DNA of 46,081 bases from Actinomycetota bacterium (GTDB lineage: Bacteria > Actinomycetota > Geothermincolia > Geothermincolales > RBG-13-55-18). The stretch is taken from NCBI GenBank assembly GCA_014360655.1, contig JACIXC010000020.1, forward strand, positions 1-46,081, given 5' to 3'. This document shows, piece after piece, positions 6,021-14,371 of the stretch (the stretch's first letter is position 1; the number at the start of each line of letters is the position of its first letter). Below the pieces are notes generated by a model, which saw only the letters and a list, made by a program, of their open reading frames with translations, had not been told where the DNA came from and did no database searches. The position numbers and the translations under genes were made by a program.

Positions 6021-6113
6021 GGAAGGGTGACCGAGCTGGCCTAAGGTGATCGCCTGCTAAGCGATTGTGTGGGTAAAACCGCACCGTGGGTTCAAATCCC
6101 ACCCCTTCCGCCA
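6021..6113 (+). tRNA. tRNA-Ser (anticodon GCT)
   Basis: A full class II tRNA folds by eye: acceptor stem GGAAGGG with CCCTTCC, anticodon stem ATCGC/GCGAT around the loop CTGCTAA (anticodon GCT at 6056-6058), a long variable arm with stem TGTGG/CCGCA as in Ser tRNAs, and T-arm GTGGG-TTCAAAT-CCCAC. The discriminator is G and the 3' CCA is encoded (6111-6113). It reads AGC/AGU codons. Confidence 0.97.
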
Positions 6114-8421: not shown

Positions 8422-10488
8422 ATGATGGGCGGAAACTGGGGCAAGGTACTGTTGGTGGACCTGACCTCGGGCACCATCGGCACGGAGGAGATACCCGAGG
8501 AGCATTACCGCGATTTCCTGGGCGGCAGCGGCCTGGCCGCCAAGTGGTTCTTCGATCACCGCGGCTGGGAGGCGGACCCGCTTTCGCCGGAGAACCCGCT
8601 CATGATCATGAACGGGCCCCTCTCGGGCACCAGCCTGCCGGGGGTGTCCCGCCTGGAGATATGCGCCCGCTCTCCCCTCACCGGCATCTGGGGGGAGTCC
8701 TCCATGGGCGGCCATTTCTCCCCCCAGCTGAAGCGGACCGGCTACGACGGCGTCATCGTGACGGGCGCCTCACAGAAGCCGGTCTACCTCTACGTGAGCG
8801 ACGAGACGGCGGAGATACGCGACGCGTCGCACCTCTGGGGCAAGGACACCTACGAGACGGAGGAGCTGCTCAAGGAGGAGATCGGCGATAAGCGGGCGCA
8901 GGTCATATGCATAGGCCCGGCCGGCGAGAACCTGGTAAAGTTTGCCAACGTGATGAACGACCGGGGCTCCACCGCTGGACGCTGCGGCATGGGCGCGGTC
9001 ATGGGGTACAAGCGCCTCAAGGCGGTGGTAGCGCGGGGCAACAAGAAGGCCCCCATCGCCGACGAGGAGGGCTTCAGGGCCGCGCGGGAGAGGATGTCCG
9101 AGATACTCAAGTTCAGCATGGTGGCGGAGGCCTTCCGCGCCTTCGGCTCCAACGTGCACATGGAGTACGGCATGGCCATAGGCGACGTGCCCGTCAAGAA
9201 CTGGCGCGAGGCCTACTGGGCGGAGGGGCCCGAGAAACTGGGCGGCACCGCGGTGGCCGAGAAGATACTGGTGAGGACGCACTCCTGCTTCGCCTGCCCC
9301 ATCTCCTGCAAGCGTATCGTGGAGGTCAAGGAAGGCCCTTACGCCCTCGCGGAGGGGCCGGGCTCGGAGTACGAGGCGGCCGCCGCCCTCGGCACCCTGC
9401 AGAGGATGGACTCCATGGAGGCCAACCACAAGGCCAACGAGCTGTGCAACCGTTACGGGATGGACGTCATATCCTGCGGCAGCGCGATCGCCTACGCCAC
9501 GGAGGCCTTTGAGGCCGGCCTCATCAAGGAGGAGGACACGGGGGGCCTGAAGCTGGGGTGGAACAAGCCGGACGTGCTCCTGGAGCTCATACGAAAGACG
9601 GCCTACCGGGAGGGCATCGGGGACGAGCTGGCCGAGGGAGTGCGCGCCATGTCCGAGAAGTTCGGGGGCGAGGAGTTCGCCATCCACGTCAAGGGGCTGG
9701 AGTGCCCCATGCACGACCCACGCGCCCTGTGGGGCATGGCTCTCACCTACGCCACCTCCATACGCGGCGCCTGCCACTGCGCGGACTCGAACCTCTACGT
9801 GGACCTTGGTCTCACGAACCACGGCGACCTCGGGGTGAAGAGGACCTGGCCTTACCGCGCCGCGGGCAAGGCGGCGCAGACCGTGGCCTCGCAGAAGAAG
9901 GGGGTCATCGCCAATTCCGCCGTCATATGCGAGTACGCCTGGAACGCGACGGGGGGCGCCCTGCCCGAGATGGTCATGATGCTCAACCCGGTGACGGGGT
10001 TCCGCTACACGGTGGACGAGCTGGCGAAGGTGGGTGACCGCATCTGGTACATCAAGCGGGCCCTGGGAAACCTCTGCGGGGCCACGCGCGAGGACGACCG
10101 GCTGCCCAGGCGCATCCTGGAGCCCCATCCCGAGGGCGTGACCTCCAGCCTGCACCTGGCGGTCTACCCGCAGTTCATGTCCATCGGCCCCATGGGCAAG
10201 CTGCGCGTGGAAGGGTTGAAGAACGCCACCGTGGGCTTCATGAACAAATTCGTGTACCCCAACATGGACAGGCTGCTCACCACCATGAACAAGCTTCCCC
10301 TCTTTTCCCTGCGCAGGAAAAAACTGGAAAGAGGCGACCCCGAGGAGGTCAGGCGCAAGACGGTGGCCTTCGAGGAGATGCTCGAGGAGTTCTACCGCCT
10401 GCGCGACCTGGACGGGCAGGGAAGGCCGAGCAGGCGGCGCCTGGAGGAGCTGGGCCTCAAGGACGTGGCGGACGTCTTGCACGGCTGA
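8422..10488 (+). CDS. Aldehyde:ferredoxin oxidoreductase family protein (W/Mo-pterin)
   Basis: A 688-residue cytoplasmic enzyme of the AOR family, which oxidises aldehydes (or related substrates) with ferredoxin at a tungsto- or molybdo-bispterin site beside a [4Fe-4S] cluster. It begins with the family signature (NWGKVLLVDLTSG, then FLGGSGLAAKW). The cluster ligands are Cys289, Cys292 and Cys296 (C-x2-C-x3-C in SCFACPISC) and most likely Cys503. ATG 8422 is chosen because the homologous N-terminus begins here and AAGGAGGG lies about 9 nt before it; the frame is open further upstream. It is somewhat longer than the archaeal enzymes (about 600 residues), with extra C-terminal residues. A MoaD-like gene follows 48 bp later, as is usual for AOR loci. 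Its substrate cannot be read from sequence. Confidence 0.92.
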   Translation: MMGGNWGKVLLVDLTSGTIGTEEIPEEHYRDFLGGSGLAAKWFFDHRGWEADPLSPENPLMIMNGPLSGTSLPGVSRLEICARSPLTGIWGESSMGGHFSPQLKRTGYDGVIVTGASQKPVYLYVSDETAEIRDASHLWGKDTYETEELLKEEIGDKRAQVICIGPAGENLVKFANVMNDRGSTAGRCGMGAVMGYKRLKAVVARGNKKAPIADEEGFRAARERMSEILKFSMVAEAFRAFGSNVHMEYGMAIGDVPVKNWREAYWAEGPEKLGGTAVAEKILVRTHSCFACPISCKRIVEVKEGPYALAEGPGSEYEAAAALGTLQRMDSMEANHKANELCNRYGMDVISCGSAIAYATEAFEAGLIKEEDTGGLKLGWNKPDVLLELIRKTAYREGIGDELAEGVRAMSEKFGGEEFAIHVKGLECPMHDPRALWGMALTYATSIRGACHCADSNLYVDLGLTNHGDLGVKRTWPYRAAGKAAQTVASQKKGVIANSAVICEYAWNATGGALPEMVMMLNPVTGFRYTVDELAKVGDRIWYIKRALGNLCGATREDDRLPRRILEPHPEGVTSSLHLAVYPQFMSIGPMGKLRVEGLKNATVGFMNKFVYPNMDRLLTTMNKLPLFSLRRKKLERGDPEEVRRKTVAFEEMLEEFYRLRDLDGQGRPSRRRLEELGLKDVADVLHG

Positions 10489-12425: not shown

Positions 12426-12610
12426 GGCCGAAGAGAAGAAGACGGTTCCCGGGCGGAAGGCGCGCGCGGAGCGCAAGTTTTTCGGGCGATCGTGTCACGG
12501 TTGCAGGAATGGATGCGTTTCAGCATGAAGAGGCGATGTTACTGACATAAAGTCATATATGGTTATATATGGAAATTGAAGATCGGCGCTAAAAATTACC
12601 CCCTACCCTA

Positions 12611-12638
12611 TTGACAGCGGGAGAGGTGATGATATGAT
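12611..12638 (+). promoter_or_regulatory. Near-consensus orphan promoter
   Basis: TTGACA (12611-12616), a 16-nt spacer, TATGAT (12633-12638), with an A/T-rich stretch (AAAAATTA) just upstream. It is the closest match to a housekeeping sigma-70-type promoter found in the window, yet no plus-strand gene follows; the next gene (12902-14371) is on the other strand. Transcription should start at about 12645, at the first base of a stem. Confidence 0.7.
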
Positions 12639-12643
12639 GGATT

Positions 12644-12795
12644 CGTTCCGGCTGAGCTTGGGGAAAACTAAGGATTTAAGCGGGTTTCCGCTTGTGTGTC
12701 CGGAACGTAGGTAGGAACCCAGGATGCCGAGTAGAAAACGTCTTGGCCCCGGCCTCGACGGTCCCAAAGGTATCTTGGGTTTCTACTTTCCGGCG
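12644..12795 (+). ncRNA. Candidate orphan structured non-coding RNA
   Basis: Downstream of the strong promoter, the sequence folds by eye into two domains. Domain 1: CGTTCCGG (12644-12651) with CCGGAACG (12700-12707), enclosing hairpin AAGCGG-GTTT-CCGCTT (12678-12693). Domain 2: GCCG (12726-12729) plus AGTAGAAA (12730-12737) with TTTCTACT (12780-12787) and CGGC (12791-12794) form the closing helix of a three-way junction. Its arms are CGTC/GACG (12739-12742, 12757-12760) and CCCAA/TTGGG (12763-12767, 12775-12779). Known RNAs (6S, SRP, RNase P, tmRNA, common riboswitches) were not recognised. The 3' end is unknown; no U-run is seen. It runs towards, and would be antisense to, the GGDEF gene if transcription continues. 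Confidence 0.5.
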
Positions 12796-12807
12796 CGCCC
12801 CGCTTCC

Positions 12808-12922
12808 GTGGCGGCGCGACCGTCTCATGAACGGAAACGCACGCGCTTTATCGAAACAAGTCCAGTCGAAACAAGCATGTTCAAGTGGCGGCGTGACCGT
12901 CTCATGAACGGAAACGCACGCA
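12808..12922. repeat. Direct repeat copying the 3' end of the GGDEF gene
   Basis: Copy 1 (12808-12845) and copy 2 (12885-12922) share about 37 of 38 bases, centred on ACCGTCTCATGAACGGAAAC, 77 bp apart. Copy 2 covers the last codons and stop of the diguanylate cyclase gene; copy 1 lies downstream of it in non-coding DNA. Between them the 10-mer TCGAAACAAG occurs twice (12851, 12867). Confidence 0.8.
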
Positions 12923-14371
12923 GTTGCGCCCCGCTTCCTTCGCCTCGTAGAGCGCGGCATCGGCCTTGGCCACGATATCCGAGCGGTCCTCGACCCCCGC
13001 GCAGGGATAAGCGGTCACTCCCTGGCTAACGGTGACCTGTACCGGCTCCCCCTCCGGCCCGGCGAAATCGTGTCCCTCCACCGCCGCGCGGATGCGCTCG
13101 GCGGTCTTGAGCGCGTTTTCCAGCTCCGTCTCGGGAAGGAGGATGGCGAACTCCTCGCCGCCGTAGCGGGCCAGGATGTCCATGGTGCGCAGGCAGCCCT
13201 TGATGATGGAGGCCGTTTCCTTGAGGACCTCGTCGCCGTAGAGGTGCCCGTAGGTGTCGTTTATCTTCTTGAAGAAGTCGATGTCCAGCATGATGAGGGA
13301 GAAGACGGTGCCGTAGCGCATGGAGCGCTTGAACTCCTTTTCAAAGAGCTCCTGGAAGAAGCGGTGGTTATATATCTTGGTCAGTCCGTCGGTGATGGCC
13401 ATGCGCTTGGCGTCCTCGTAGAGGCGGGCGTTGTCCACGATCATCACCAGCTGGTTGCTCACCAGGTTGAGGATGGCCTGGGCGTCGCGGCGGAAGGCTG
13501 GGGTGGGAGGGCCGGCCAGCAGCAGGAGCCCGATGGGCGCGCGGTGGGCGATCAGGGGGATGTGGATGTATACCGGCTCCGGCATGTCGCCGTCGGGGGA
13601 GGTCACCAGGTTGCCCTCTCCCAGGATGACGCGGCCTATCGTCCGGGGGTCCCTCACCCGCCACGCGTAGCCGGTGGCGATGTCCAGGGACTCTTGCACG
13701 GCGCCCTCCAGGGCCTCCGTCGCGGTGGGCTGGTTGACGTACAGGTGCATCTCCATCTCCTCGAAGAGGAGCAGCAAGCCCAGCTGGTAGTTGAATAACT
13801 TGTCCAGGATCTCGAAGATCGAACACACCGTTTCGTTGAAGTCCTGCAGCGAGCCGGCAAGGGATGCGATATCGTTGAGGATGGTGGTCTCGTAGAGCTT
13901 GCGGTCCAGGAGGTCGGTGATCTTGTTGATGATGTAATCCTCGCTGACGTCCTTTCTCCGCTTGCGGGAGAGTTCCTTGCTCTCACGGTACTGCGAGGTG
14001 TCGGCGAGCAGCTCATCCACCTTTTCCAGGAGGTGCTCGGGCTTGAATCCCTTGGTGATGTAAGCGTCGGCTCCCGTCTTCAGGCCCCAGAACATGTCGC
14101 TCTGGTGTTCACGTCCCGTGAGCATGATGATGGGCATCCAGGAGGTCATGGGATCCTCCTTGAGGAGGCGGCACACCTGGTAGCCCTTTATCTTGGGCAT
14201 CTCGATGTCCAGGATGAGGAGGTCGGGGAGGAGGGAGAAGGCCTTCAACGCCGCCTCTATGCCGTCCCAGGCCACGTCGACCCTGTAACCGGCCTGTTCG
14301 AGTATGGAGCCGGTCACCTTGACCACCAGCTTGTTGTCGTCGGCCAACAACACGTGCTTCTTTTCGGCCAT
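12902..14371 (-). CDS. Response regulator diguanylate cyclase (REC-GAF-GGDEF)
   Basis: A 489-residue soluble protein that should make cyclic di-GMP. REC domain 1-122 has phosphoacceptor Asp55 (LILDIEMP); the conserved Lys is followed by Gly (TKGF) instead of the usual Pro. A GAF-like sensor fold covers about 165-325. The GGDEF domain (330-489) has the active motif GGEEF at 404-408, the metal Asp in LIMLDIDFFKKIND, and an inhibitory I-site RTMD at 395-398, five residues before the active motif. It is therefore probably catalytically active and product-inhibited. No kinase is adjacent. Its 3' end is duplicated downstream. Confidence 0.9.
   Translation of the reverse strand: MAEKKHVLLADDNKLVVKVTGSILEQAGYRVDVAWDGIEAALKAFSLLPDLLILDIEMPKIKGYQVCRLLKEDPMTSWMPIIMLTGREHQSDMFWGLKTGADAYITKGFKPEHLLEKVDELLADTSQYRESKELSRKRRKDVSEDYIINKITDLLDRKLYETTILNDIASLAGSLQDFNETVCSIFEILDKLFNYQLGLLLLFEEMEMHLYVNQPTATEALEGAVQESLDIATGYAWRVRDPRTIGRVILGEGNLVTSPDGDMPEPVYIHIPLIAHRAPIGLLLLAGPPTPAFRRDAQAILNLVSNQLVMIVDNARLYEDAKRMAITDGLTKIYNHRFFQELFEKEFKRSMRYGTVFSLIMLDIDFFKKINDTYGHLYGDEVLKETASIIKGCLRTMDILARYGGEEFAILLPETELENALKTAERIRAAVEGHDFAGPEGEPVQVTVSQGVTAYPCAGVEDRSDIVAKADAALYEAKEAGRNCVRFRS

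Follow-up and report, generated by a model that had tools for sequence, protein, structure and literature searches.

A promoter without a gene

The question raised by this locus is what is transcribed from a strong promoter that has no gene behind it on its own strand. In the window, by which we mean the whole stretch of 46,081 nt analysed here, a scan of both strands returned a single 11/12 match to a sigma-70 promoter, at 12611-12638, and two others at 10/12, in agreement with the first-pass annotation, which had called this site the best of its kind in the window. The -35 hexamer TTGACA (12611-12616) and the -10 hexamer TATGAT (12633-12638) are separated by 16 nt, with an extended -10 TG at 12630-12631, one base 5' of the -10, and in the 800 bp surrounding the site one promoter-like sequence was found against 0.3 expected. 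It had also been stated that no plus-strand gene lies downstream, and this is the case: the next gene, for a response-regulator GGDEF protein, is on the minus strand at 12902-14371, while the gene 5' of the promoter is divergent and belongs to the dihydrodipicolinate synthase family (dapA-like). The only RNA gene of the window recognised by Rfam and ARAGORN is a tRNA-Ser(GCT) at 6021-6113.

The elements at the 5' end of the locus are:

12596-12609, + strand: conserved block TTACCCCCTACCCT just 5' of the -35, kept in nearly all members of the window's family and partly in the other families of the order
12611-12638, + strand: sigma-70 promoter TTGACA-N16-TATGAT with extended -10 TG
12644-12707, + strand: 5' domain closed by pairing of 12644-12651 with 12700-12707, predicted +1 near 12645, found in the window's family only

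BLASTN against related genomes, a check that the first-pass annotation had proposed, found the region once in its own genome and in 16 relatives, and showed that promoter and RNA are kept together in the order Ca. Geothermincolales. Covariance models (R1, R2 and R3) were then built and run inside one phylum, on a sample of 396 Actinomycetota genomes. With R1 the RNA was present in 17 of the 18 genomes of the order, the sole genome lacking it being only 62% complete, and this model detected it in none of the 13 genomes of the class outside the order. In the alignment of relatives the promoter hexamers are kept and the spacer is variable; the 5' domain is kept within one family and is missing from the other families of the order; the 3' hairpin is near-invariant and in most relatives ends in a U run. 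We regard the existence of an RNA gene in the window as nearly certain. Conservation of the TTACCCCCYACCC block 5' of the -35, at 12596-12609 in the window and at the matching positions in relatives, equals that of the promoter; the block is a possible activator or regulator site, or a possible upstream or special promoter contact. Downstream of the RNA in one relative (L009, about 1330-1365) there is a partial second copy of the 3' half of the hairpin (GGGGTACCAAAAGCGTCTTGGGTTTCTACT).

The RNA folds into a 5' domain and one long hairpin

The RNA is more stable than its own shuffles (z = -3.7, 0/200). The 8-bp stem first proposed for its 5' end (12644-12651 with 12700-12707) is present and retained in 12-13 of the 13 family sequences, among which it shows zero covariation because its sequence hardly varies. 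The second domain had been drawn as a three-way junction closed by 12726-12737 with 12780-12794, and here the relatives show one long hairpin instead. In 16 relatives the proposed helix is paired in 82.3% of cells against 81.6% after shuffling, its covariation does not exceed that of the shuffles, and its lower four pairs are formed in only 56% of cells; the junction is rejected as the conserved fold, since its helix behaves as its shuffles do. In contrast, the competing hairpin (12711-12728 with 12769-12786, plus an inner stem of 12739-12742 with 12757-12760) is paired in 97.7% of cells in the same relatives, and double changes occur at 9 of its pairs, where shuffles give 2.3. Thus, when covariation was examined for both of the outer helices first proposed, the 5' stem proved invariant and the second helix gave none, while the single hairpin, which is also the minimum-free-energy fold of the window RNA, does covary. 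Its parts are:

12711-12728, + strand: outer stem of the core hairpin, 5' strand, with massive covariation across the phylum
12729-12738, + strand: internal loop, 5' side, GAGUAGAAAA, holding the AGUA-G core of a proposed bulged-G module
12739-12760, + strand: inner stem, which covaries, and variable apical loop, which differs by clade
12761-12768, + strand: internal loop, 3' side, GUCCCAAA, with an edge pair (G.A, Y.C or C-G) that changes in concert
12769-12786, + strand: outer stem of the core hairpin, 3' strand, on the same basis as 12711-12728
12787-12797, + strand: probable 3' end, where the hairpin is followed by a short U run that is weak in the window (UUU) and reaches UUUUUUU in relatives

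Together, hairpin and U run probably double as a terminator at the 3' end of the RNA.

The hairpin belongs to a family spread over Actinomycetota

Matches to R1 are spread across Actinomycetota. R2 found the hairpin in 69 of the 396 genomes and exposed divergent members, in which the G.A at the loop edge is replaced by Y.C; R3, built with these included, found it in 87/396 (56/301 among the good genomes), with only one or two copies per genome. The window, which was itself within the model alignments, scores 63.8-100.6 bits against the three models; it has the outer stem, the AGUAGANAA / GNNCCAA loop and the inner stem of the family, and the distant members found by the later models share all of these. 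Thus the RNA is not special to the window's lineage and belongs to a family spread over the phylum. When a degenerate loop pattern was sought in GTDB genomes, all named organisms among the matches listed were actinobacterial, two records being titled only 'bacterium'; among the matches listed were Actinomadura, Streptosporangium, Microbispora, Nonomuraea, Microtetraspora, Serinicoccus, Ornithinimicrobium, Acidimicrobiia and many MAGs. A class built around genome G070 comprises 3 genomes only and has the RNA in 3/3.

The stems of the family covary strongly. When 45 non-redundant hairpins were aligned with MAFFT, 215 double-change cells were counted in the inner stem and the 13-bp outer stem, against 66.8 in shuffles (0/500). 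For 88 distinct R3 members, 92.3% of cells are paired and 378 double-change cells are found where 112 are expected (0/500 shuffles); this alignment was fitted to R3 and leans to the model, and independent MAFFT alignments, likewise at 0/500, agree with it. In slid controls of the test pairing falls to 27-49%. G-U cells outnumber A-C cells in the family stems by 157 to 28, and selection therefore acts on the plus-strand RNA.

The family also reaches a genus of 6-10 Mb genomes, in which the gene order is RNA, ppm1-like glycosyltransferase gene, FxsA-like gene and rbpA. We take this genus to be Streptomyces by context, as the order is that of the Streptomyces locus. At the Streptomyces-like loci L235-L240 the RNA lies between a gene of the amidohydrolase region and ppm1, two genes from rbpA. 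In S. coelicolor, ppm1 is SCO1423 (PMC5882110).

Promoters and neighbours change from clade to clade

Over 106 family loci the promoter-like score upstream of the hairpin is 7.05, against 5.3-5.8 in controls (p about 1e-13 to 1e-17, values overstated, as the loci include relatives and are not independent). Within a clade the distance from the -10 to the loop is nearly constant, at about 90, 49, 24 or 58 nt; at some loci no promoter is recognisable beside the hairpin, as in the polA-linked long forms, in which it lies further upstream. The neighbours differ as well: polA (42 loci) and a thioesterase gene (28), mainly in Streptosporangiales; the order amidohydrolase, RNA and DUF4193, lnt or ppm1 in several other groups; and a FAD-dependent oxidoreductase or GGDEF gene in Geothermincolales. 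Promoters at clade-specific distances combined with changing neighbours argue that the RNA is an independent transcription unit and not the leader of one gene, as far as genomic arrangement can tell. Of 72 loci, 19 are followed by a predicted gene on the opposite strand and 53 by one on the same strand, so that the RNA may act in cis in some clades.

The domains outside the hairpin are also clade-dependent. In the window's family the 5' domain measures about 64 nt; f14 has a short GC-rich hairpin in its place, and Actinomadura has almost no such domain. A stem GGAUCACC of Actinomadura resembles the 3' end of 16S rRNA; we judged this a coincidence, as other clades differ. Several families have polA-linked copies in which a longer RNA, measuring 216-288 nt from its closing helix to the hairpin end, carries the hairpin as its 3' domain. 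The closing helix reads GGUCCCRAGCGG / YYGCUYGGGRCC, and one of its pairs changes from A-U to G-C. This long form, with a second domain upstream of the hairpin, was seen at L048, L072, L077, L105, L107, L160, L185 and L189, and the f8 loci L226, L248 and L250 seem to share its layout.

The internal loop resembles a bulged-G module

Across the 88 members the core of the internal loop is near-invariant, with AGUAGANAA on the 5' side and GNNC(C/G)AA on the 3' side, an invariance that owes something to the models and to a search pattern based on the loop. The edge pair is G.A in 56 members, Y.C in 23 and C-G in 7. AGUA stands opposite GAA in 7/88 and opposite CAA in 77/88, and the next G-C pair is invariant. 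AGUA/GAA is the textbook bulged-G sequence and belongs to the members with the C-G edge pair. The internal loop may thus be a bulged-G (sarcin-ricin / loop-E-like) module, exact in 7/88 and mostly a CAA variant. It has in common with these modules an AGUA opposite GAA or CAA and the flanking pairs, a likeness of sequence alone, and the bulged-G, which occurs as a structural module in many RNAs, does not define a family. Such modules are common docking sites for protein or RNA. In contrast to the internal loop, the apical loop depends on the clade in both length and sequence, being CCCCGG in f14 and GGUAA or GNRA in Actinomadura; a purine-rich GGGGAAGG loop recurs in several clades.

The family has no counterpart among the known RNAs compared

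The window, 18 distant members, 15 divergent members and 15 Streptomyces-like or other loci, searched against Rfam 15 (4227 families) at gathering thresholds, gave tRNAs or nothing, and the sub-threshold matches of the window are weak and chance-like. The first-pass annotation had recognised no known RNA family, and this survives the comparison with curated thresholds. The largely open-access literature covered on the Streptomyces loci and on ncRNA, supplementary sRNA lists aside, contained no description of the RNA; individual members may already have been seen in RNA-seq. The family is in none of the RNA databases searched; the novelty claimed is that of the family and does not extend to a mechanism.

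Two classes of protein-bound RNA were considered and rejected. The targets of ANTAR proteins are likewise widespread protein-binding stem-loops of Actinobacteria, and consist of two stems with hexanucleotide loops carrying A1 and G4 (PMC8164766), whereas the conserved hairpin has a single stem, interrupted by a large internal loop and capped by a variable apical loop. A Y RNA, the partner of Ro60/TROVE proteins, does not fit, PF05731 occurring in just 1 of the 17 RNA-bearing genomes of the class. A TROVE (Ro60-like) protein is encoded at G014:C105:4567-5481, in one genome of the window's family, and its relatives are without it.

A stand-alone RNA that may dock a partner

The locus had been read at first as a possible regulatory or housekeeping RNA of this lineage. 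An orphan-promoter structured RNA of unrecognised class is what we find, because the RNA is conserved along with its promoter, its stems covary, the G-U excess is strand-specific and Rfam gives no match; the restriction to one lineage falls, as the family is phylum-wide. Taking into consideration all of the above, we favour, at a probability of about 0.6, the reading that 12644 to about 12797 on the plus strand is a stand-alone ncRNA gene of about 150 nt, a member of an uncatalogued phylum-wide family that would act in trans by docking a partner. In the mechanism that we propose, the internal loop would fold into a bulged-G (sarcin-ricin / loop-E-like) module, this module would dock a conserved protein or another RNA, and the RNA would work in trans as a small ribonucleoprotein or a decoy, the lineage-specific 5' domains being accessory. 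For trans-acting docking as such we consider the odds about even.

The alternative of a cis-regulatory leader, a riboswitch or protein-responsive attenuator in which hairpin and U run form a switchable terminator for the downstream gene, draws on the 53/72 loci with a same-strand gene next, on the frequent FAD-dependent oxidoreductase gene (window's family) or lnt/ppm1 downstream and on the U run ending the hairpin in relatives. We think it unlikely: the window, L003, L014 and L016 have no downstream gene on the RNA strand, the genes found downstream in different clades (polA/liv region, lnt, FAD oxidoreductase) bear no relation to each other, and in divergent f16 members the hairpin is directly followed by a separate strong terminator hairpin. 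The nearest known case is the livJ motif, a riboswitch candidate of Streptomyces and a leader with a Shine-Dalgarno sequence in a P1 bulge (PMC11109978). It is also actinobacterial, and some Streptosporangiales copies of our RNA lie upstream of liv transporter genes; by description, our RNA is set apart by its own promoter, by unrelated downstream genes in most clades and by having no liv tie elsewhere. Just as unlikely is an antisense-type RNA regulating mRNAs through a seed, as classical trans-encoded sRNAs do, since the conserved element is an internal loop within a long stem with no exposed seed, and the apical loop is variable or absent (CCCCGG in f14, GGUAA or GNRA in Actinomadura), even though an own promoter, a terminator-like end, a length of 80-160 nt and the purine-rich GGGGAAGG loop of several clades would all suit it.

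An RNA polymerase-binding RNA of the 6S or Ms1 type is less probable again. Such RNAs are diverse in the phylum (PMC11077062), the Streptomyces-like copies lie near rbpA, and Ms1 / scr3559 and 6S are also stand-alone structured actinobacterial RNAs that keep their structure while their sequence varies. However, our RNA lies at other loci and is a shorter rod whose internal loop is small and invariant, and the large promoter-like central bubble is missing. No Rfam 6S or Ms1 match was obtained, and 6S and Ms1 themselves were rejected. Ms1 is about 300 nt and adjoins a HAD-hydrolase gene (PMC9130861), whereas the neighbours here are dapA, GGDEF, FAD oxidoreductase, polA/thioesterase and amidohydrolase/lnt/ppm1 genes. 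CoRP of Corynebacterium glutamicum, another recently found stand-alone actinobacterial RNA, was rejected by its different synteny; it is described as 516 nt, tRNA-flanked and RNAP-bound, unlike our RNA in locus and size. Least probable is a repeat that makes no RNA, whether DNA-level, mobile or due to chance: the locus is indeed an inverted repeat within intergenic DNA, but G-U cells are 5.6 times as frequent as A-C cells, the promoter stands at a fixed distance, the stems covary and there are one or two copies per genome.

A bolder form of the stand-alone, partner-docking reading is an ancient Actinomycetota housekeeping-type ribonucleoprotein RNA, kept in Streptomyces and relatives, with long polA-linked (about 220-290 nt) and short forms within the same genomes, and captured as a decoy or mimic by at least one phage; this we offer tentatively, at less than even odds. 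On this account the family was overlooked because its stems vary freely. A family with a near-invariant loop and no Rfam counterpart points to a conserved RNA interaction that has apparently never been studied, in a phylum that is medically and industrially central. The family occurs in genera that can be cultivated (Actinomadura, Nonomuraea, Serinicoccus and, by context, Streptomyces), so that a probably conserved, unexplained part of actinobacterial biology becomes testable.

A copy in a phage-like contig

The divergent loop pattern had four matches in viral sequence (L255-L258), which were dismissed as chance, as they span phage coding sequence and have no covariance-model score, and the Streptomyces-type loop pattern had no match in viral contigs. 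The phage-like contig L207 (IMGVR_UViG_3300044808_000042) carries a 74-bit copy of the hairpin at 9214-9289, and a search for this hairpin in sequenced phages gave no match. The copy lies just downstream of a DnaB-like helicase gene, with an exonuclease gene on the same contig. This single case would suit a decoy or hijacking role, and a phage-borne copy provides an independent handle on function.
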